The notes under the pieces are model-generated. The model made no database searches, was not told the DNA's origin, and was given only the letters and a program-made list of their open reading frames with translations. This document shows, piece by piece, positions 24,829 through 51,936 of a DNA stretch of 64,000 nucleotides. Both the position numbers and the translations under genes were made by a program. The stretch is from Thozetella sp. PMI_491 (Eukaryota; Ascomycota; Sordariomycetes; Chaetosphaeriales; Chaetosphaeriaceae): positions 1,552,796 to 1,616,795 of the forward strand of contig MU270018.1 of assembly GCA_021432635.1 (NCBI GenBank). Direction: 5' to 3'. The number at the start of each line of letters is the position of its first letter. The first letter of the stretch is position 1.

Positions 24829-27800
24829 GATGACGGCGTAGATGGAGGTGAAGGATAAGGCTGATGGAAGAGCGGGCTGCCCGGACGGAGTTGTTGTACC
24901 CGGTGCCTTTGGTCTTATTCACCCTTTTCTCTTGATATCGAAGCCAGCCGTCTGGGCCCAAAACAGCTGATCCGAGCCTGTCCCAAGGAATAAAAGAATG
25001 CGCCCAAGACAAGAGCCTGTTTCGTGCTAGAGGAGGCGAAATATACGCCTGAAACTAGCAGCAGCTCGTGTCGACAAGGGCTCGGAAGCCAAGGCTTGGC
25101 GTGGTGACGTCTTGTATGTGCGTACCCGGGAACCGGGGGGGGAAGAGGTCGGGAGGGGACTTAAATGTCACCACACGTGTTCCCAGAGTGCTAAGGGTGA
25201 GCCCGAGAGACGGCACCGCGTTGAGCGACAGGGGTGTTTTGTCAAAGAGGCTTGGGCTAGAGGCCTAGGTTCGGCGAAGAAGAGGCGATGGTGAGTTAGA
25301 AGTAGTTGCTCGAGCAGTCCAACCAAGAGCCGCAGGATAGACTAAGCGGCTGGGTTGAAGAGGAGGGGCCCTGCACAAGGGAGATGCGGGAAGACGGCTG
25401 GTATTATTCCCTCACATGTCGGCGTGCCATCCTTAGCCAGCCTCGCAATCACAAGTGGTCGGCTCCTCCAAGGCGGCCCGGGGGCTAGGGACTAGGGACT
25501 AGGGGGGGGGGGGGGGCGGCTAGGGGTCTAATCGCTGCGATGCATACGTAAGTTGGCATGGAAGCCCCCCCAAGTGGCCCAAAGTCTCAAATTTCTTAAT
25601 GTAGCCCTGCCCTGTCTCTCTCCTCATCCAGTCGCGCTGATCGCTCGCGTGCCGACCTAGGCGATTGGGACGGTTCTGCGGGGCATGCACCCTCTTCCAA
25701 CTCCTCTCCTCGAAATAACGGAGCCAAGAGATACGGAGCAAGAAAAGCGCTAGCTAAACTCATCCTCGCTTGTCGTGCTCGCTTTTGCCTCTCTCAGTCA
25801 ACCGATGATAAGCAGGGGGCTAACGGAGGGCCGCGGGCTGAAGCTGCGATGGCCGCCGTGTGTGCTCTTCTTCAACAAGGCCCACCCCGTTCCTCTTCTC
25901 TTTCATGGATTCATGGAAGTAACCATCGGCAGGCACGAGACAGAGAGGAGCAACGGCGCGTGACGGTGGTAGGGTTGCGTCCTGCAACGGGCAAGTCTGC
26001 ACGAGAGCAGGGTCCACCATTCAGGAGGTTCCGTTTGGACGGGACGCGTGGCACACAATCTCGTTCCCCTCCAAGCCAACCAAACCAGCAGCGCCAGCCT
26101 CAGGAGCCCGCGCAATTCAAAGCCCAGCTGTCTCTAGCTCCGGAGCTACGCTGCGCCCTCAAGCCGACCCTGGAATACCTCTCTCCACCGTATCAACCTT
26201 AGGAGGTGGTGGGCGCCGGCGCGTGGGCCGGTGCGGTTTATACTTTTGTGCCGCCTTTTTCTGCGCCGTCCAATGTATATTTTTTTTTATGATGCTGTGC
26301 TTTCTTTGGCCGCCTGGAAGCCAACAGCCCGGGCCGCGAAATTGACTTTGAGCCTCGCGCGCCCCGGCAACCGGGAAGCCAGAAAAGCCAGGTCGACCTT
26401 TCGTCCATTCGTGCTCACCGGCAATATCGTGCCGACCGACGCACGAGGCCAAGTGCCGGATTTAGAAAGCCAACGGGCCCTCACCGTCTCCCCTGGCTCG
26501 CGCCTACGTAGCAAAGATAGGCTAGGGAAAAAGCTTAGCTGACTGAGAGTGCGTCGGAGGCGCTGCTTTGATTGCTGACGACGCGCGTGCCCGGCTGGGT
26601 CACGGTCTCCACCTGGCGTCATGGAACATGGAACCGTAACCCCAGCGGGGGGCGCCCCTTCGATCTCACCACCCAGAGGAGACGACTCTGTGCCTAGCAG
26701 TTAGAATGTTGACCGGTTAGGGGAAGCCAGCATGCTTGCGCAAGCGCTTCAGGATGTCTGAAACATGGATTAGGCAGTTGCTATAATTATCTCGGTCTCG
26801 GAAGGTGCGTATCTCTGGAGATATTTGCTAATATGCAACACGCCAGCAGCGAGAATGTCGTTTTTGTTTCTCACACTGATCTCCTCGGAAGCGGCGATCG
26901 CGCCCCTGAGCAGGAGATGCGCCTCACCTGCTTGCCGCGTGTGAGGCTGGGCATCTCTCAGCGCCTGGCGGTGCTTGTTTTCTTTGTGTATATCCTTTCC
27001 TCGTCGAGATTCGGGTGTCCGCCACCCCGAATATCATGTTGCCCCGACTGCACGACGTCTACTACGGGCTAGGTGCCGTGTGCCAAGAGCCTATTCTCAA
27101 CGGCCCGCTCCACCGGACCTCGTGTCTAGGGCCGTTGTTGGCCGCAGAACCTTCGATGGTGGGACGGCCTTGCCGATCCCTTTCCCGGGCATTCCTAGCG
27201 AAGAAGCGTTGCGTGACAGGCGACCGACCGCTGGCGTGACCTGCACAGCATCGACCCGAGAGCTCAAGAAACCTGCAAGAAAACAGAGGCTTGAGATCCC
27301 CCTGCCGGCACCGTCCATGTCACTTTGGGGATGCCAGAAGCACAGCACCCTGGCAGGGCGGGGAGTAGGATGTAGCCGGCCATTAATTACATGCCGACAC
27401 CAAATGAGGATGGATCCTCGGCAATACGGTTGCTTCGTAGTTACAGCAGCTACTACTACGCATCACTCAGCATTGCGTGCCACCGATGCCCCTGTCCCCC
27501 CTCCGGACGTAATACCTGGGTAAGAAGGCACACGGAGTAGGACCGATGCAGTATTTGTGCCCCGTGATCCATCGCCTGTTCCTGAATACCCGTCCGGGAC
27601 ACCCACTAGCACCCGGCCAAAAATCCTGCACTGCTCCCCGGACATGATAGTGGCAAGCATCGTACGTGGTCATGTTCGTTCAGTCGAGTCAGTCAAACCA
27701 CTCACTGGATACGGCATGTTGATGTTCGCCCGAGGAGCCTGCCTTGATGTGTCTTGCACATTCCGTGGCGAAACGTATCGGCCAGCAGTGATCCGGTGCT

Positions 27801-28424
27801 AGGCACTCTATTGTAGACACCTTCGATACTGGCGCAAGCAAGGGGGGGTTCTAGGGTTATCCCGACACGCAGAATCTGGCTCTTCCACGGGCGTATTAAT
27901 ACGTGCCTGCTCTGACAGCCTAAACCCTGGAGGAGGGACCATCGTCTGGAAGACCTGTCACCATACCTGTCATAAACCAGACGCTCTCGATGGTCTACTA
28001 CGTTTTCATTAGAACTCAAGGCGCCACACTATGTGCAAGCACAATAAACCCGTGGCTCTAGACCGATTCTTGTCGTTATGGACACATTTACCCTGCCTTA
28101 TCGGCCCCCGTCTCGGCTATGCGAAACATACTTAGACTATTTCATGACATTACCAAAGGCAACGTCAGGTCTTCGGGGTAAAAAACAAGACCAAAAAACA
28201 TTACTATTTTGCGACAATTTTGTGACTGGCGCAGCTAACTAGCTCGCATGGGTCGTGGATAGATTCTTCAAGAGCCTTGGTGGTGCCATGATACCATCCG
28301 TCCTTGTCGTGCTCGCCGCTGCTCGGGTTGTCGAGCTGACAACCCTCGATGGACCTAACCGTAGCCGCTTCGTCTCCAGCTCTGCTAAACGGTACAAGAG
28401 TCCTCGTACCATATACCCTGTCCT
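24829..28424. other. 3.6-kb gene-poor region
   Basis: The left end is the LicD promoter and the right end the 3' flank of the histone variant. Open frames here are short or Arg/Pro-rich, and I recognise none. A G-quadruplex-type tract lies at 25480. No transposon genes or terminal repeats were seen, although old decayed insertions cannot be excluded by eye. Confidence 0.5.
25480..25526 (+). other. G-quadruplex-type G-tract
   Basis: The strand reads GGGGG-CTA-GGG-ACTA-GGG-ACTA followed by a run of 15 G (25502-25516), then CGGCTAGGGG. Four or more G-runs with loops of 3-4 nt meet the usual quadruplex pattern. The GGGACTA unit is repeated in tandem. It lies about 650 bp upstream of the LicD start codon. 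Confidence 0.75.
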
Positions 28425-28943
28425 TTAGTTATTGGCCTCAAGGTCTCGTACGAGCCGCATGTCATTCTAGTCCTGGTTAATTATGGGCTAGCTCAAGAGA
28501 AAGTTGAATGCACGAACCTCGCTGATGGTGATGCGTCCGGCGTGGAGGGCTGCCTTGTTTGCCTTGGCGAAGAGGCGGGCCAGGTAATCCTCCGCGATCT
28601 CCTGCAGCGCGAGCAAAGCCTTGCGCTTCCATCTCAGCCGCGGGAGGTGAGGCACGCACTCTCCAGCGACTTCCTCGACCTAGAGACCGTCAGGGTGGGA
28701 GTGCCCGGGGCGGAGTGACGGGGAGGGGGGATGAACTTTGCTTACCAGACGTCGAAATGGTCGCTTTGGGAGCAGCTTCTTGGTGCTCTGTTGGTACTTT
28801 TTTATCTCCCTCAGAGCGACGGTGCCACTTTTGGCGCGCCGCCGTGGCTTCGACTTTGGTTTTACCTCCTCTATCTGGGAGACAGTCTGGCTGGGTACCT
28901 GAGGCCGTCTGGCCTTGCTTTTGACGGTCTTGAGGCGAGCCAT
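28425..28943 (-). CDS. Divergent CENP-A-like histone H3 variant
   Basis: I read three exons: 28746-28943, 28518-28679 and 28425-28466, joined over 66- and 51-bp introns, giving 133 residues. The first intron has GTAAGC, a CTGAC branch-like site and TAG. The second has an unusual GTTCGT donor, TTAAC before the acceptor and TAG. The tail starts ARLKTVKSKARRP, keeping Lys at H3 positions 4 and 9. The histone fold starts SGTVALREIKKYQQST, close to H3. As in CENP-A, loop 1 is longer than in H3 (by three residues), Trp replaces Phe in LRWKRKALLALQEIAED, and LHAGRITI replaces IHAKRVTI. The last helix reads SENDMRLVRDLEANN where H3 has PKDIQLARRIRG. FEDTN has become FAKAN. It is either a fast-evolving CenH3 or an extra H3 variant; centromere use is inference. 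Splicing is unconfirmed. Confidence 0.82.
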
Positions 28944-29508
28944 CTCTTGTTACTGTCTCGTCAGTTGGCGTTGAGAGTAACCAAGCTAGCTGGGGCGCTC
29001 GCCCGAGGTGTCGAACGGAAGAGACTCAATGCAATAGCATACGACGGGCCGGCAAAGGGGTATTAGGATAGTGATCTGGTCACTGCGGGCTGGGAGGTGA
29101 GGCAGGTGGGAATATTGAAGATTAGAAATGTTACATAACGCGTGTGGAAAGGGAGCGGTTGTTGTGGTGGCGGGCTGAAAACTCATTACAGGCTCGCTCA
29201 CATGCACTTCACAACCAAACTGGTAGAAGGGACCATGTACCCTGACAGCGACCGCGTTTCTACAGCTGGGTTTTCTCAGATTGGGTTTGGATTCTAGCAC
29301 AGCCCTGTATTCTCTCGCTCCTGGTCCTTTCGTCCCTATTGATGGTTATAACGTAAACAAACCCCTTAGCTTACTTGGTCGCTCGATATCCCCCTGACTG
29401 GCACTTGCAAACACCCTCACGGGCTATCGATGCCCATAGCATAGGAAATTTGGGCTGTAAGATTGTCATCAATGATCACTTTATCACTGTCTCTTCTATG
29501 GTGCTAGA
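28944..29508. other. Spacer between eme1 and the H3 variant
   Basis: Both genes are read leftward, so this 565-bp spacer should hold the Eme1 3' UTR and the promoter of the H3 variant. No gene is seen. Confidence 0.6.
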
Positions 29509-31521
29509 TTAAACATCCATACTCGTCTCGTCAGTCCCGGTGAATATCTTGTGCAAGCGCCGGCTCACGGCCTGACCGATAGTTCTATCCGACAGCGCCC
29601 CATCCTTGTTGGCGCTTTTCCGTACCGCCTCTAGGGTGAGAGGCCCGCCTTCTTCCAGCCCCCTGACCAATTTTGACACCGTCTCAAACTCCCCCGCGAT
29701 CCCGTACGCGATCGGTGCCGTCACACGGGCGACCTCCTGAAGCATTCTCACATAGGTATCCCGGGCACCATCACCGGTCCGTACCTGGCCCGACTCCATA
29801 CAGAATGCGGCTGTAGAGGCGTTTGTCTGCTCGCGCTGTCGGCGGTAGGGTACTGTGCTGATGTGTTGGGTGAAGACGGCGACCCACTGGGCCGTCTCGA
29901 CGGCGGCGCTAGTATGGTGGATGAGTGCTCCGTGGAGGACTTGCAGCTCGAGAAGGGCATCCTCAATGCGGTCTTCGTCGATGTACTCTTGCTGCGTGGC
30001 GTTGTTCTTGCGCCGCCTCACAGGGGCCTGGCCACTCGCAGGGGCCGAAGGGTTCTCAGTTAGGCCGTTGCGCACAGCTGAGACGAACTGGCGATTCCGG
30101 ATGTTACGGTTATTGCGTATCCAGGGGCCGAGTCCCTGGATCATATACACTAGATCATGATCTGGATAGTATTGCTTCATCTTATCGACGTGAGCAGCAA
30201 GATCGCTCTCTCCGGCGCCTGTAGCGAGCTCTACGAATTCGACCGCAGAGACGATAGGCATGGCGTATCGTTCGTGATCAATCCGCGGGGGAATCGGTTC
30301 CCAGTGGCCCATCTCGTCGTTGAATCGTGCCTTGACTTTTCGCCGCCACTTGACAACATTTTCAACGGGGCTAGTGTGGGTGGCAGTCTCCACGTCGAGA
30401 TCCTTGAGCAGTGTCTGGGCCTGTAGCAGAAGGGTAGGCTCGAGAGAGGCCGGAAGGTCAACTATCATCTCTGGAGTCGAGATCTTCTTGTCTGTCCGAA
30501 CTTTGTTGACCTCGGCGAGGGCAGCAGCCTTTTGCTTTTCCGCAGCTTTCTCCTGCTTTGCCCGCTGCTTCTCTCGTTGCTTACGTTCTCGTTCGGCTTC
30601 TCTTTCGGCCGCCCTCTGCTCCTTAACCAGCTCCTTCTCATCAGTTGTTTTGCTAGTTGCCGCCTTAGAGCGCCTTGGAGCCTTAGCCTGAGTTTCTGAA
30701 AGTGCGTGCCTGGTAAGAGCCGACAGAGCCTTGAACTTGGGCGCGCCGAGGTGAGCAATGTCGGGGAACTCGTCCTCCGAAGAGGGTAGCCGAGCATCGT
30801 CATCCGAGTCGTGAATAGCTATAACCTCAGATTGGCTCCTTTGGAGGGAGCAACGGCTGCGGCTGGGCTGAGTGAGGCGGTCTTGGTGCACTTCGGGAGC
30901 AGAACTCGAGATTGGATCCCATTCTGCCACTTTTGGCAGAGGCAGTTCCCGCACCTGCGGCGAGCTGCTGGCAAAAGGGTTACGCTCGAATTCGTCAGAG
31001 CTGGCATGCAATCCTCTTCGGGCTGTAGTCTTTCCAGCAGATAAAGAGGACAGCGAGGTCTCACCGCAGCTGATGGGGCGGTCTTTCGATACTGTGAGAC
31101 AAGACACTGGGGAGCTGGACAAGTCGATTGGTTCCAGGGCTGAGCTTTGCCATCTTCGTGAGGCGGCAGGTGCAGGTTTCAGCTTCGCTGCCGTAGTAGC
31201 TGCAGACACGGCCCTCTGCTGCTTGCTATTTTGAGCCCGGGGGCTCGTTTCCCTCTCACTTAGTCTCGGGACTTTGGGTGCGGGCAGAGGGAAGTCATTC
31301 CCAAGGTCGTCGGGGTCCCAGGTTGAATCGAAATCGTCCGACAGGATCACAACGCCTGGCACGCTTCTTGACGGCTCCTGTCCTAATGGCCGTTTCGACT
31401 GGCCAGGTAAACTGCCATCTATACAAACGGCTGATTCTTTCGGGCTTCCTAGACTTTCAAGTGGTCGCTTGGGAGCTCGGTTCTCAGGGCTAGAGAGAAG
31501 GCTGACAATCTCGATGGGCAT
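29509..31521 (-). CDS. eme1: Eme1/Mms4 subunit of the Mus81 structure-specific endonuclease
   Basis: Eme1 is the non-catalytic partner of Mus81 and helps cut branched DNA at stalled forks and crossover intermediates in the nucleus. The gene is one uninterrupted exon of 670 residues. The N-terminal 300 residues are disordered and acidic/serine-rich, with VVILSDDFDSTWDP and repeated SSP motifs. The segment at about 300-340 is a highly charged helix (EREAERERKQREKQRAKQ). The C-terminal half has the degenerate ERCC4 nuclease fold, with YAMPIVSAVEFVELATG, DHDLVYMIQGLGPW and TAQWVAVFTQHISTVPYR, then a helical tail with RTGDGARDTYVRMLQEV. The catalytic ERK motif of Mus81 is absent, as expected for the Eme1 side. 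Confidence 0.88.
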   Translation of the reverse strand: MPIEIVSLLSSPENRAPKRPLESLGSPKESAVCIDGSLPGQSKRPLGQEPSRSVPGVVILSDDFDSTWDPDDLGNDFPLPAPKVPRLSERETSPRAQNSKQQRAVSAATTAAKLKPAPAASRRWQSSALEPIDLSSSPVSCLTVSKDRPISCGETSLSSLSAGKTTARRGLHASSDEFERNPFASSSPQVRELPLPKVAEWDPISSSAPEVHQDRLTQPSRSRCSLQRSQSEVIAIHDSDDDARLPSSEDEFPDIAHLGAPKFKALSALTRHALSETQAKAPRRSKAATSKTTDEKELVKEQRAAEREAERERKQREKQRAKQEKAAEKQKAAALAEVNKVRTDKKISTPEMIVDLPASLEPTLLLQAQTLLKDLDVETATHTSPVENVVKWRRKVKARFNDEMGHWEPIPPRIDHERYAMPIVSAVEFVELATGAGESDLAAHVDKMKQYYPDHDLVYMIQGLGPWIRNNRNIRNRQFVSAVRNGLTENPSAPASGQAPVRRRKNNATQQEYIDEDRIEDALLELQVLHGALIHHTSAAVETAQWVAVFTQHISTVPYRRQREQTNASTAAFCMESGQVRTGDGARDTYVRMLQEVARVTAPIAYGIAGEFETVSKLVRGLEEGGPLTLEAVRKSANKDGALSDRTIGQAVSRRLHKIFTGTDETSMDV

Positions 31522-34500
31522 TGTTTGTTTGGCCGGATCCGCAGGACCAATGAGAGAGTTGGACTGTGTGATGCTTCCCTGAGCACTGCAGAAGCCTGAT
31601 AGCGGAATATAATGCTAGGAGCAAGGTGTTCAAAGTGGAAGGTATCACATAAGAAGCCAGTGTCCTCTCTGCCCGGAGAATTTACCTATGGTAGTTTACG
31701 ATGCCATCATGCCTTCCCACAAACGCGACTAGGGACCTGGGCCCACGCGTCGGAAGCCACGAGCTATTCACGAAAATCACGTGCACTTGATTGGGGTAAA
31801 GCGGGCCAGCAGAACCACTTAAGGTAGATTCAAAGAGGTCTAGAGCTACTCAACACAGCATTGACGGACTCTTCAGTCGCCTCGACCGATTCCTCTGTTC
31901 TCTCCTCCCCTTGCGTTTACAAACGAATTAAAGCTAGCTACGGGTTTGGATGGGCGAAGCGTGGGGTGGCAACCGAGCTCCCCTCATGCGCATGTACAAG
32001 GAGCTACCGATAGCTTGGAGTTCCTCTAGGCAACCCCGCTCTAGGAAAGTGGCATCGACCTCTCGACAAGACACTTGAGGAGGACCTGGGCCGGATGTCG
32101 TGGCACAGTACACTGCAGTCCCGAATCTTGATAGGCACCCCTCCCGCACCTCCCCAGTTGGAGCTGCTGTGCTACCTCGGTAGGATGAGGGAGAAGCAGG
32201 GAGGAAGCATTTCGAAACCACCCCTCTCGATACAAGCCACTGCCAGCTGGTTGATGACGGCGAATGGGAGGCTTGTGTCCTCCAAGGGGGTTCTGGAGGT
32301 TTGGCCACGAGCCGAGGCGCGAGGCGCGGGCAGAACCTTGTACGAGGCATGGGAGCACCTCACCGAAGGATTGCCAGTCCCTTTTGCCCGTCTTGCCCTG
32401 TTCGATGCAATATCTATCTTGCCCCAATTCGCCGCCTGCACAGCTCCGCAGGCAACCTTACCATCCTTCACGACTTGGCGAAGAGTCCACACGTGGGTGC
32501 TGTGAAACACCTGCCCAATCAAATCTCCTCGCGCGAAAATTGTTTCGCCAGGCGGACGTGCGGATCTCTGCTTCCTAGTCTTGGGAGTTAAGCTAACCCA
32601 AGCCGCAGCGCGCACGGTCGCGCAGTTTGCAGACAAATGCTGCCCAGAGCCACTCATCGTGTGCAACCCTAGCAGGGGGGTTTGTGGAGAGTGGTCTGAG
32701 GTCGGTTTTGTCGAAGATACCACCAGTGGCGGCAAAGATGGGCTGCTAAAAGAAGCCGACCTTTTCGCAAGCCAGCTGGGGACTTCGAACTGGCTGCTGC
32801 TAGCCCTGATACAAACCCAGCAGCAGTGCTGTTCGCTTGGCACCCTGAGCGTTATTGGTAGCCTAGTGCTTTTTTTTTGTCGCATCGCTAGTCGGCTACC
32901 GCTCGGAGGACCAGTGCAAGTCCAGATACAGGGAGCAGGTTTGTACAAGGTCCGCTCCGTATTAGGACGCGGACGGGGCTTGGAGATGGCTATGTCCGTC
33001 CGGCGCCCGTCTCGGCCGTGCCGCCGTGACAACTGTCGAGTCTCGTGGCATGCGACACGGCATTTTGCATGGGAGGACGAAGTGTATGCAGTACGAATGT
33101 GATGTGCCCCAGCTCAGCCAGGGACTGCATACCCACACGGCGGCCCGCTTCGGAGGCGGACGACTTCCGCGGCAAGCCCCGAAACCCATCAGAGCCTAGA
33201 GCGACGGAGCGAAGGCCATGGAAAAACTGCTCCGCATCTTGTTGATATGCGATGGATACCATCGGGGATGGGATCTGGATGGGCACCTGATGCCTCCCTG
33301 CCATGGGTGCGGGATTCCTGCTGGTGGGAATCACTGCCGTCCCTCTGGGGTCGCCACAGTCGGGAGGTACCATGGGTAGGCCAGTGCCGTGCAGTCAACG
33401 CTCCCAAAGCCTCCGTGATCAGACTCGTGGGATTGCTGGCATGAAGTTCCTTGCTGCACTGCAAGCAATAGAAGCATGCTTCCTTCGCTGGTATTGGCCA
33501 AGGAGGCTGGGCCCAGCTCTGCATGTCGAGTTGGCCTGCTCTCTAGAAGGTCATGGCGTGCGTCCCGCGCGAGCAGCTGTGTGCCTCGACTCGTGCGAGA
33601 AGACGGAGACGGACAGCAAAGAGCTGGTTTGGTGTGCCATGGCCCGCAAGAGTCCAAACGGCGGCTCAGGGTGTCCGGAAACTTGCCCCGCATTGAAGAG
33701 GATGAAAGACAAGACGATTCGAGGCCCATCTCAGTGCTACAGTACTGGATGACCCTCCTGAGGAAACCGGCTAGAACGCGGTGGCATTACCCCGGATGAA
33801 AGAGTGGACCGTGGATGTGTGTATTATCCAGCGTAGGAGGCCCGGCCGTCCCAAACTCGAGCCTAGAATTCTACTATGCGTTGGAGCTTTCTCTTTTCGG
33901 CACCATGAGGTCGCCATGCCAAGGGAGTTCTGGCATGCCAGCCCGAAACCATGTCTCGGAGTAGTGTGAATGATGGGTGCAAAGTGTTGAATGTCCAGAG
34001 TACAGAGTGGCGGTGGGCGGAATGAGCCTTTGATTGACTAATCGACGGAATAATAGGCGAAATAATAGACGAAATGCTACCCTCCTTACTCAAACACAGT
34101 ATGTATCGATAAGGGGGGGTCCTTAGCCAGCTGGTCTCTTAGAGATTGACCGGACAAGGACGCACCCGGGAAGGTCGCGCTATGGGAGACGCCTTCACGT
34201 ATTACAAACCGGCTCGAGGTGAGCTGGCAATGACGACGGGGAGAGGGCCCAGCTTCCTGGCCACTCGCGCAAACCCCATCCACAGCGCACAGCACGCATG
34301 CAGCCTGCTCCGCAACCAGGGCAGGGTGCCGGTGGGAATTCAGGATTTGATATCCTGCGTCTCAAGTGCCGGCAGGATGCCTTCACGATGGGGTATCTAC
34401 CACATACGACGTAGGTAGTCAGCTCAACATCGGACGAATACCCGATGTGTTCTCCTCCTCCCCGATCCTACTTCCCGGTCAGAGGGGAGCGAGGGCTTGA

Positions 34501-37500
34501 CCGAGAGTTCTCGTCGAGATAGGGCGAGAAGAGCCCTTGACCAGGCCCCATATGCGGAAAGGTGAAACCGGTTGGAAGAGGGCTGCCTGTGGCGCTCCAG
34601 GTCTCCCCTCCCCCAAGTTGCCTCGCCACGTTTGGCCTGCCTGGGGCCGGGGTCCGCAGCACGGAAAGTCGAGATGCCCGGAGTCGTGCGGTGGAAACTG
34701 TGCCAGAATCTCGATTTATTCTCCGGCGCGGACCCCTTTGCTCTCCCAGTCCAAGGTTGCCCTGGATGCGTCGCCGGCGTTGCGGTTGGACGGCGCCGTG
34801 TCAGGTCGCTTCCACGCCTCGCAAATTGCTAGTCCTGGCATTATCTTCGTAATAATACTCTCCTCGGACGTTGCTTTGCGCTCATTTGGAGGGAGCCGCA
34901 CCGGAGACATCACACACATAGCTACGGACCCCACGGTTGGACAACCGGATTTTGGCCTTTTTGTTTTTACATGGGGACGTTAAGGGGGGGGCGTGATAAG
35001 TCGTGATAACGAAAATGGTCTCTCTAATCGATAAGCAGCTGCCGGACCGTTGGCGAACAAACTCTGGTTGGTGATCTGGGGACCCGGGCGACTAGGTGCT
35101 CCGTAGTTTACGGAGTAGGGGGCGTGCAGGGTCGACTCAGTCACCCGTCTTCGCCGCAACGCGCTGTATGAACGAACTGGGGGCGACAGGGGAAACGCGA
35201 TTGCTGGCGGGGATTCGTAGAGCAGCCATGTTGGCTGGCCGTCCTCCCCCCCTTTTCCTGGGAGAAGGGGCTAACCTCGATCGGGGCGGGTTTAGGTCCC
35301 GTCTGGGCTGTGGGTCGGAGATTGCTCCATTATCAAAACCTCAGCTCTGGGTTGCGCAGGGGGGACGGGACTGCCGCGGTTGAAGATGCGTAGTGTTTTG
35401 AGATACCATCCTCTCCGGAGAAACAGAATCGTGGTGGGGACTGCACATAGTGGTGGTGGTGGGCAGAGAAGCGTCGAGAAGTCGAGGAATGGCAGCTTGG
35501 CGGGCTCCCAAACGGGATCGGCGTCGTGGTGGCCACCGAGGCGGAGGCGCGCGGAGGCACTGAGCAGAAGAATGAGGCGAGGTGCCCCGGCCGGCCACAG
35601 ATCCCGGATCCCTCGGCGCGAATCTCTGTCAAAGCGCTTCAGGTTCTCTCGACCACGCGTTTCTTTTTTGGGGAGGAGGGGGACGCAAGGCACAGACGCA
35701 CCCGCCATGCACAGATGCAACATTCAGTGGGTTGTATGACAGGAAGACGAGCGAAGGCGTCCGCCACCACACTCGTCGCCGCGCCGTTCGGTCGCTGCGT
35801 TTGGCCAGCCCGTATGCGCGGTGGCCCACTGCGTGTGCGCTTTCATCTTTTCATTCTCGAGAGTGCGCCCAAAGGGGGGGGCCCCTCCTCCCGTGAGACC
35901 TACCTGCTTGCGTCGCTTTTGCCTCACCACACCCCCCCCAGCGTTGTCTTTCATTGTGACCGGCGGTCCAGGGTCCAGAACCTCGGCCACTCTCCTCCAC
36001 CCAGGCCGCGACGGTAGCCACACTTGCCCACGCTTGTCCACGCTAGCGGCACTGGCTTTCCAGGGTGGGGGGGAGACCTTCCTTGTCAAAGTGGTTTCCG
36101 GATGGCACCAAGTGACCTTGGCCTGTCTCTCTCTCTCGCTCTCCTCCTTCCCTCCCTCCCCCACCCCATGTTTAATGAGTGCGAGGCGGAGGTGATTGAT
36201 GGCCGAGTCGGTTTTTTTGGGGGGACCCTCCTAGAGGGTGTACGGTGATATACGATTGGCCCGGACCTGTCCTCTTCTCTCGCGAAGTGTCCCTGCATGG
36301 CGTCCTGCGCGCGCCGTCATAGGCCCTGCAGCTATGACTGGTCCGCTTGACAAGCTTCGCGATTCAAGACCTCGCCAGTGTGCGCCGACGGTTCTTCTGC
36401 ACCCCTGGAATTAGTAGAACCAGCAGCGTTAGCCAGGAGCTTTTGTGGTTTTTTTTTCTTTTCTCCTAGCGGCGGATTGGGTGGGCGGATAGGCCGATTA
36501 ACTGTTAGCGGGCCCCATAAACGAGCCCGGGCCTCTACATAATTAGTATCGGGAGAAGAGACTGGCTTGAGAAAGGCACCGCCGGAGCGTGCCGCAATGT
36601 ACCATCGCAGAAGAAGGTTGGCTTGGTCGGCTACATACCATGTATTACTACGAAGTATGTACATGGAGGATAGGGGGGAGAAGCATTGGAGGATGCCACG
36701 TCTTCCCCACCGTCGTCATGATCCGCAGGCGAGCCTGTGCCTCTTTGCGCACGGCGTCCTGTACGAATCGGCCGCCTAGTGACGAGAGACGAGACTGTGA
36801 AGACGGAGGAGGAGGGGGTGGAGGAAAGGGGTCTCGCTCTGGTGGTGGCTCCTTCAAAAGCGGCGACCGGGGTTGTAATAGGGAGACACTGGCCGGGTCG
36901 GGTCGCTCGCGAAGCTCTGCACAGGGCCACAGGCTGACAGCCACTGTGGCACCCCTTTCCGCGTGCGTGCTCGTTGCGTTGCGCGATCATGGTCCGTTCT
37001 TTTTTCCTCTCTCGGGCGGTGGAACACCAGACCGCACTATGTACTCTTCAGGTATCCCTCCCCCCCCCCTTCCTAGTACTAGGCCACCCATCCCCGTCTT
37101 AGACTGCTCGAGCGCAAGCCCATCTTTCCCTGTCTTGCTTTTCTTCGCGCCTTCCTTGTGCTTGTGAATCACTCTGGTGAATCACTTCGTGTGCCCGACC
37201 TCTTTCTTCGCATCTTAAGCAACGGGTCCTGCCCCCCCTCCTTCTGCTCTTCCCCCTCCTCGAGAAGTTTTGCGCGCGCGTGTGTCCTCGCCTCGACTCT
37301 GCTACTTGCCCAGTGCAGCGCACCTTGTGGGCCATACCACCGAGAGCCTGGACGAGAAAGCGGTGCGGAAGCGGCCCCAATCAGACCCGGCGATTGCCCG
37401 TTCAGGGGACGCGTTTGTAATTTGCGCCCCCCCTGGTCGCTGCAATCAAATAAACAACCCCATCCCGGCCGCCGCCCAGCCAGAGCCTCTCTCCCCCCAA

Positions 37501-50366: not shown

Positions 50367-51936
50367 ATGGCATTCCTCAGTAGATCTCGTTTAATACACC
50401 TCTCTCTTCTCATACTACTCTCTTCAAGCTGTGCTTGGGCGAACGACGGAGCGAGGCATGAGGCACTCCACGACGCGAGGAGACGGGGGCTTGGAGACCC
50501 CGAGGGGGGGCTGGATGCCCGGGAGCTGATGGCGGCGGCGGCACACGGCGCGGAAGACGCCATGCCGCTGTGGAGAAGAGTGGGCGTGGAGATCCGGGAG
50601 GTGGTCGACCACGTCGAGAAGCTTGTCGAGAGGCGCCAGCACCCGGCCCGCTCTCCGCTGCCCACGCGGGCCGCCGAGCACGCCGACAAGCTCGTACGGG
50701 ATGCGTGCATGGCCCTCATAACGCCAGCGCCGGTCCTGCTCGCGCGCCAGAATGACGGCCAGATCCAGGCGCTCTCGAACCAGCTGCAGCAGCTCAGCGA
50801 CCAGTCGCGCCAGGTCTCGCAGGCTTCGCAGCAGGTCTCGCAGCAGAGCCAGCAGCTGTCCCAGAGCCTGCAGCAGGCGAACCAGCAGTTGTCGCAGACG
50901 CGCGATCAGCTCGCCAGCGCGCGGGCCCAGTCCTCGGCGGCGTCCCAGGCGGCGCAGCAGGCGTCCCAGGCGGCGCAGCAGGCCAGCGATGCTGCTCGCC
51001 AGGCTAGCGATGCTGCCCGCCAGGCCAGCAGCAGCGCCGACTCGGCCGTCGCCGCGGCCTTCTCCAGCGCCAGCAGCTCGGCCAACGTGAATGCTGCCAG
51101 CGTCCTGGCCGTTGCAAGCTCGAGCGCTGCGAGCATCATGAACAATGCGCAAAGCATGATCAAACAAGCCCAGGCCGAGGCTACTGCCGTGAGGGTAAGT
51201 CAGAGAGTCTTGTCCATCCAGGGGCGCACCTGATCGTTACTAACCACCATGTCTCTAGAACGAAGCCACCACCCAGGTACAGCAAGCTCAGGGCACCGCC
51301 GTTTCCGTCACCCAGGCTGCGCTCGCCATCGTTGGCGCCATCATTGGCTCTTCCCTCGTCACTATCCTCACCTTTACCCTCATCCTGCGGTACAGGCGCA
51401 TCAAGAGGAGACAGTCTCGCCTCGCCGCCTCGTCGCGCAACAACATCAGCTACCCGGCGCTGTCGAAGACATCCAACGCTGGCTACGGCCCGAGCATGTA
51501 TGAGAGCAACTTCAACAACAACGGGTTCCCCGTCGACGTCAAGGAGCCGCCGCGCGCCGCCGGCGTGGGCGGGCCCATGGGCCTCCAGCGCAGCAACACG
51601 ACCTCCAGCGACGGCAGCGTCCCTACCGCACCACGTGTCGGCTACGCGAGTAGCGACTACGGCAGCGTCCCGGAGGCCAACCCCAACCAAGATAGGGAGT
51701 TCAAGCTGAACGAAGCCCCCAAGGGGAAGTTTACCCTTTTCCCGCGGCCACAAGACGACCCGCAGCCGACCGCGTCGACAATGAACTCGACGAGCCCGAA
51801 ACCCCGCGGCAGCAAGATCTTCCCGCCGAGCTTAGACACATGGCTCCGGGCCGGCACGGTCAGTCCGTTTGGGACATTGCAAAAGTCCCAGAACAACACG
51901 AATAAGAGCGACTGGCCGATGAAGAAAGGAACGTGA
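50367..51936 (+). CDS. Single-pass membrane protein with Gln/Ser/Ala coiled coil, function unknown
   Basis: I do not recognise a named family. There are two exons (50367-51194 and 51259-51936, 64-bp intron), giving 501 residues. Residues 1-25 form a signal peptide (LIHLSLLILLSSSCAWA). Residues 130-235 are a predicted coiled coil rich in Gln, Ser and Ala, ending in four near-identical heptads (SQAAQQA twice, then SDAARQA twice). A Ser/Ala-rich stem follows. A transmembrane span, ALAIVGAIIGSSLVTILTFT, lies at about 296-319, followed by the basic stop-transfer RYRRIKRRQSR. The cytoplasmic tail of 175 residues is Asn/Ser/Pro-rich. This is the plan of a type I wall or surface sensor (compare Mid2/Wsc), but no WSC or other named domain is present, so that role is only a guess. 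Confidence 0.85.
50943..51026 (+). repeat. Four tandem 21-bp repeats coding for heptads
   Basis: Four in-frame 21-bp units encode SQAAQQA, SQAAQQA, SDAARQA and SDAARQA. Units 1-2 differ by one base and units 3-4 by one base, so each pair looks like a recent duplication. They extend the coiled coil by four heptads and are a likely site of length variation between strains. Confidence 0.85.

Follow-up and report, generated by a model that had tools for sequence, protein, structure and literature searches.

The window, a 64,000-nucleotide stretch of Thozetella sp. PMI_491 DNA, carries a three-exon gene whose predicted product is an H3-family histone with two CenH3 marks and an altered alpha2 end and alpha3. 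We favour the reading, at a probability of roughly 0.48, that this is a real gene encoding a fast-evolving, CenH3-derived H3 variant, with somewhat better odds of being an extra copy restricted to its lineage than of being the organism's sole CenH3.

Structure and coding potential of the histone gene

The gene lies on the minus strand. Exon 1 (28746..28943, 66 codons) covers the N-terminal tail (MARLKTVKSK...), alphaN and the first part of alpha1; exon 2 (28518..28679, 54 codons) holds the rest of alpha1, a long loop 1, a tryptophan, alpha2 and loop 2; and exon 3 (28425..28466) encodes alpha3 (NDMRLVRDLEANN), followed by a TAA stop. Two phase 0 introns, both read directly, separate them: intron 1 (28680..28745; 66 nt, GTAAGC...TAG) and intron 2 (28467..28517; 51 nt, GTTCGT...TAG), the donor of the latter looking weaker than that of the former by what we take to be the consensus. 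Joining 28943-28746, 28679-28518 and 28466-28425 gives 133 codons before the stop, confirming the coordinates, exon number, protein length and motifs quoted in the first-pass annotation. Without splicing, the frame is interrupted by a TAG as the final codon of intron 1 and by two in-frame TAG codons in intron 2; we infer splicing from the homology on both sides of intron 1. The longest sense ORF is 87 aa, as had been noted, and longer ones lie on the opposite strand. These antisense ORFs (plus strand, 28559-28924, 121 aa, and 28731-29066, 111 aa) overlap the histone gene, probably by chance. Calling the gene cryptic and missed by scans was an overstatement; queried with a fragment of H3.3, plain tblastn picks it up in the window at E 5.6e-15.

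The spliced 133-residue protein matches the Pfam Histone family (PF00125) at 96.7 bits, against a cut-off of 26.4 (E 1.5e-27), which upholds the proposed H3-family membership, and exon 1 and exon 2 each give a significant match by themselves (E 6.7e-9 and E 2.1e-10, respectively). By this homology, which lies far beyond chance, the predicted protein is an H3-family histone. Its H3-type alphaN block (GTVALREIxxYQxST) is present as GTVALREIKKYQQST, aligned to H3 and Cnp1. CENP-T (CENP-T_C, 23 bits, cut-off 28.1), the NF-Y type (CBFD_NFYB_HMF, 17.5 bits, cut-off 21.4) and the histone-fold family Bromo_TP (14.9 bits, cut-off 24.6) were also tried, and all scored below their cut-offs.

For exon 3, we kept the donor fixed, permitted any AG 35-150 nt downstream and made 5000 dinucleotide shuffles of the 300 nt downstream for each reference. 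The real score was 17 against the last helices of H3 and human CENP-A and 21 against those of Cse4 and Cnp1, and was equalled or bettered by 31/5000 shuffles for H3, 18/5000 for human CENP-A, 5/5000 for Cse4 and 2/5000 for Cnp1, whose reference was cut at nine residues. The exon 3 match exceeds chance. Codon usage was trained on ten stretches of the window, nine being ORFs that matched Pfam families (an ARM repeat protein among them falling below the cut-off) and the tenth lying inside an ORF that resembles kinesin by eye and was not Pfam-scanned. The gene's own frame was the best of six in exon 1 and in exon 2, while in exon 3 one antisense frame scored slightly higher (0.32 vs 0.24).

Neutral decay was simulated in 2000 runs per identity level, with assumed mutation and indel rates and the gene itself as a stand-in ancestor, and a run was called intact if the start, frame and splice dinucleotides were preserved with zero frame-breaking indels. 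Intact copies were left in 27/2000 runs at 85% identity, but in only 0/2000, 1/2000 and 0/2000 at 75, 70 and 65%, respectively. At these assumed rates, prolonged neutral neglect is unlikely, and the three-exon gene looks, from its sequence, like a working gene. The Pfam scores, the exon 3 shuffles, the codon usage and the rarity of intact runs at 75-65% all argue for a real gene. A copy silenced so recently that it has not yet acquired a stop codon would agree with the intact runs at 85% and with the weak-looking donor of intron 2, but such a copy is made quite improbable by the codon usage of the first two exons, which is of coding type, and by the interface residues and 25/36 invariant columns kept in the protein (both described below). 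A parallel for it is the H3 paralogue of Aspergillus terreus, a gene with two introns whose expression was likewise not seen (PMC5307856).

CenH3 marks and divergence from known histones

Among the best 60 of 185 PDB matches at E <= 1, the top ones were Cnp1 (PDB 9lrv, presumably the CENP-A of S. pombe; 82.6 bits), H3.Y (82.0 bits), H3.3C (81.5 bits) and H3.3 (80.6 bits). These near-equal values count against the favoured reading, and for this predicted protein the PDB score by itself does not separate CENP-A from H3. We compared the candidate with a panel of six sequences, three CENP-As (Cnp1, Cse4 of S. cerevisiae, PDB 7k78, and human CENP-A) and three H3s (H3.Y, H3.3C and H3.3). Relative to H3, loop 1 is three residues longer in the candidate and in Cse4, two longer in human CENP-A and six longer in Cnp1. 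Position 84 is a tryptophan in the candidate and all three CENP-As, and a phenylalanine in all three H3s. The CenH3-type loop and tryptophan reported by the first-pass annotation are thereby borne out in the panel alignment, and as sequence features they point to CenH3.

Further likenesses and differences accompany these marks. With Cnp1, the candidate shares the histone fold and D-M at 123-124, but only 42/87 residues are identical, and Cnp1, whose loop exceeds the candidate's by three residues, retains FEDTN and QLARRI. With Cse4 it shares D-M at the same positions and the ALHA and RITI blocks, although identity is 44/91 and Cse4 keeps QLARRIRG and ends in QFI. Canonical H3 and H3.3 have in common with it the histone fold, the alphaN sequence GTVALREI, the H3-H3 interface residues and the ARxK start, whereas the longer loop 1, Trp84 and the altered alpha2 end and alpha3 set it apart from H3.3 (43/85 identical). 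Identity over the fold is 37/90 to human CENP-A, 45/85 to H3.Y and 41/85 to H3.3C, giving a range of 41-53% across the six panel sequences, compared with 51/91, 53/86 and 58/87 (56-67%) between pairs of CENP-As.

These values bear on whether the gene could be a diverged copy of canonical H3, with a long loop 1 and tryptophan of independent origin. Identity to H3.Y and H3.3 does slightly exceed identity to the CENP-As, which also counts against the favoured reading, and the N-terminus starts with ARxK, which we take to be a feature of H3 tails. However, the panel CENP-As are likewise nearer to H3.3 than to each other, so the plain identity of the candidate is no argument against CenH3, and a canonical origin would require both CenH3 marks, found in 3/3 CENP-As and 0/3 H3s, to arise a second time. 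Such an origin has poor odds, even with the two-intron H3 paralogue of A. terreus as a precedent (PMC5307856). A seven-row tree, in which the candidate's branch measures 1.89, supports none of its four inner branches, a further point against the favoured reading; for divergent uncharacterised H3s, tree position cannot assign H3 or CenH3 function (PMC2939574).

The first-pass annotation had proposed either a very fast CenH3 or a new H3 variant; a histone with CenH3 marks was upheld, and both alternatives are still live. Quite possibly the gene is the single CenH3 of the organism and evolves at an exceptional pace, its partners CENP-C and the Scm3 chaperone having changed alongside. The Cse4-like loop, Trp84, the intact gene and the leading place of Cnp1 among the best 60 of 185 PDB matches (0.6 bits above H3.Y) are consistent with this. 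One CenH3 is expected in every fungal genome, and was found in all aspergilli (PMC5307856), while extra H3 copies are expected in few, so the prior favours a sole CenH3 over an extra copy. In Magnaporthe oryzae deletion of CenH3 was unsuccessful, the gene being refractory, and CenH3 is essential where studied (PMC6667624). Yet the candidate is more changed than any CENP-A of the panel: it departs from 11 of the 36 columns invariant across the panel, while leave-one-out counts place human CENP-A as the most changed panel member, at 10/46. The first-pass annotation stated that the last block stays close to H3 in known Sordariomycete CenH3s; in the panel, all three CENP-As, which come from solved structures, keep QLARRI in alpha3, and the CenH3s of M. 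oryzae and Neurospora crassa are still 73% identical (PMC6667624).

An extra copy would fit the lower fold identity and the 11/36 changed columns. It would also fit the alpha1 motif, which reads RPFRR in the candidate, LPFSR in Cnp1 and human CENP-A and IPFAR in Cse4, and which is LPFAR in the CenH3s of all aspergilli, a mark at the level of that genus (PMC5307856). The panel holds no CenH3 from a close fungal relative, which weighs against the favoured reading. CenH3 duplicates have been reported in animals and plants, among them the extra, fast-evolving CenH3 copies hcp-3L and CPAR-1 of Caenorhabditis, of which CPAR-1 is apparently absent from centromeres (PMC9577544). Most duplicates of this type have 69-100% fold identity to their parent, whereas the candidate has at most 53% to anything compared (PMC9577544 for the duplicates). 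In fungi, no CenH3 duplicate or comparable H3 variant was found in the openly accessible parts of the literature searched. Extra intron-containing histone genes do occur in filamentous ascomycetes, as the A. terreus H3 paralogue and a third, intron-rich H4 gene in most aspergilli illustrate, although the A. terreus gene, likened to the candidate by description only, was treated as an H3 paralogue and not as a CenH3 (PMC5307856). If the gene is an extra copy, it would be a fungal case of CenH3 duplication, possibly with a new function, as in animals and plants; if it is the sole CenH3, it shows the extent of change in alpha3 and the CENP-C-facing surface that is compatible with working centromeres.

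Residue changes at nucleosome contacts

The H3-H3 interface has been described as comprising H113, A114, L126, A127, I130 and R131, with contacts H113-D123 and R116-D123, and in yeast H113A, A114Y, L126A and L130A are lethal (PMC3017104). In the four-helix interface of the candidate, H113, A114, R116, D123 and L126 are all kept, which agrees with the favoured reading; A127V and I130L are conservative changes, C110 is replaced by alanine and R131 by glutamate. Since these five residues are kept, tetramers with H4 are expected, and the candidate protein is predicted to form them. Pairing with H4 would run through the retained core of alpha2, and two molecules of the protein may join via the H113/A114/R116/D123/L126 contacts, in which case the protein could replace H3 or CenH3 in a nucleosome.

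Its grip on DNA would be redistributed. The candidate carries K56Q, R63P, R72E, K115G and K122N at positions that we take to face DNA, the lysines at 115 and 122 presumably contacting the dyad; these changes would be losses, while K-R-K at 85-87, beside loop 1, would be a gain.

The altered alpha2 end and alpha3 singled out by the first-pass annotation are real. Both carry charge-altering changes, E105A and D106K at the end of alpha2 and R129D and R131E in alpha3. The net charge of segment 104-116 rises from 0 to +3 and that of alpha3 with its tail falls from +3 to -2, making the last helix acidic. A pairing of charges between positions 106 and 131 is a suggestion; a description of a 106-131 contact was not found in the accessible parts of the literature examined, including PMC7308085 and PMC8025322. 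The protein ends in RDLEANN, without a hydrophobic tail of the kind bound by CENP-C. In CENP-A, CENP-C contacts such a C-terminal tail (PMC7475651), which may not be general among fungi. The missing tail counts against a sole CenH3 and fits an extra copy; together with E105A, D106K, R129D and R131E, its absence would weaken the contact with CENP-C and create a new surface.

The joint charge reversal of the alpha2 end and alpha3, along with K115G and K122N, also leads to a bolder proposal, which we regard as unlikely: that the CenH3-derived histone has gone from the kinetochore and forms a looser, distinct nucleosome, perhaps with a divergent H4, to serve a particular stage, for instance meiosis or the formation of spores. 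The third H4 gene of aspergilli is an example of such a partner (PMC5307856).

Genomic surroundings

Next upstream of the histone gene, on the same strand, is an ERCC4-domain gene (29509..31521, minus strand), a 670-aa ORF with a Pfam ERCC4 match (E 1.3e-16, 61.2 bits, cut-off 24) that we provisionally name EME1-like. An ACGCGT word, which we take to be a possible MCB-type G1/S element, lies at 29138..29143, some 195 bp upstream of the start codon of the histone gene, and would fit, weakly, the G1/S expression of a sole CenH3. A second copy is found at 31745-31750, 224 bp upstream of the ATG of the ERCC4-domain gene. With 13 copies vs 13.3 expected, ACGCGT shows no enrichment across the window, and control of both genes at G1/S through it is a weak possibility.

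In a six-frame scan at E 0.01 with exons not joined, the 3.6 kb downstream of the gene (24830-28423) matched zero Pfam families, and the 5 kb at 31500-36499 gave a single sub-threshold Myb match (18.3 bits, cut-off 24.4). The CenH3 of N. crassa is NCU00145, numerically beside NCU00146 (DER1) and NCU00144 (from a transcription-factor set), and the CENPA of M. oryzae is MGG_06445 (PMC6667624), numerically beside MGG_06446, a porphyrin-pathway gene. Locus numbers are a proxy for neighbourhood only, and the order of genes in fungi changes. Neither DER1 nor a porphyrin-pathway gene was matched in 24830-28423, in 31500-36499 or among the 11 large ORFs scanned, which counts weakly against the ancestral CenH3 locus and, also weakly, for an extra copy.

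A tblastn search of the window at E <= 1 with fragments of H3.3, Cnp1, Cse4 and H4 found only the histone gene, the H4 fragment matching nothing. Searches for relatives gave 10 pattern matches in viral contigs and 95 in bacterial and archaeal genome contigs, both poor places for fungal genes, with zero confirmed in either. Ten more ORFs of the window matched the methionine synthase, gamma-glutamyltranspeptidase, alcohol dehydrogenase, actin, asparaginase, Tfb4, ARMC5, LicD, GH72 and WLM families, a gene content that would suit a fungus. Elsewhere in the window, a 288-aa ORF on the plus strand (50367-51233) begins with a signal-like stretch and contains repeats rich in Ser and Gln; tandem repeats of 21 bp lie at 50939-51029.
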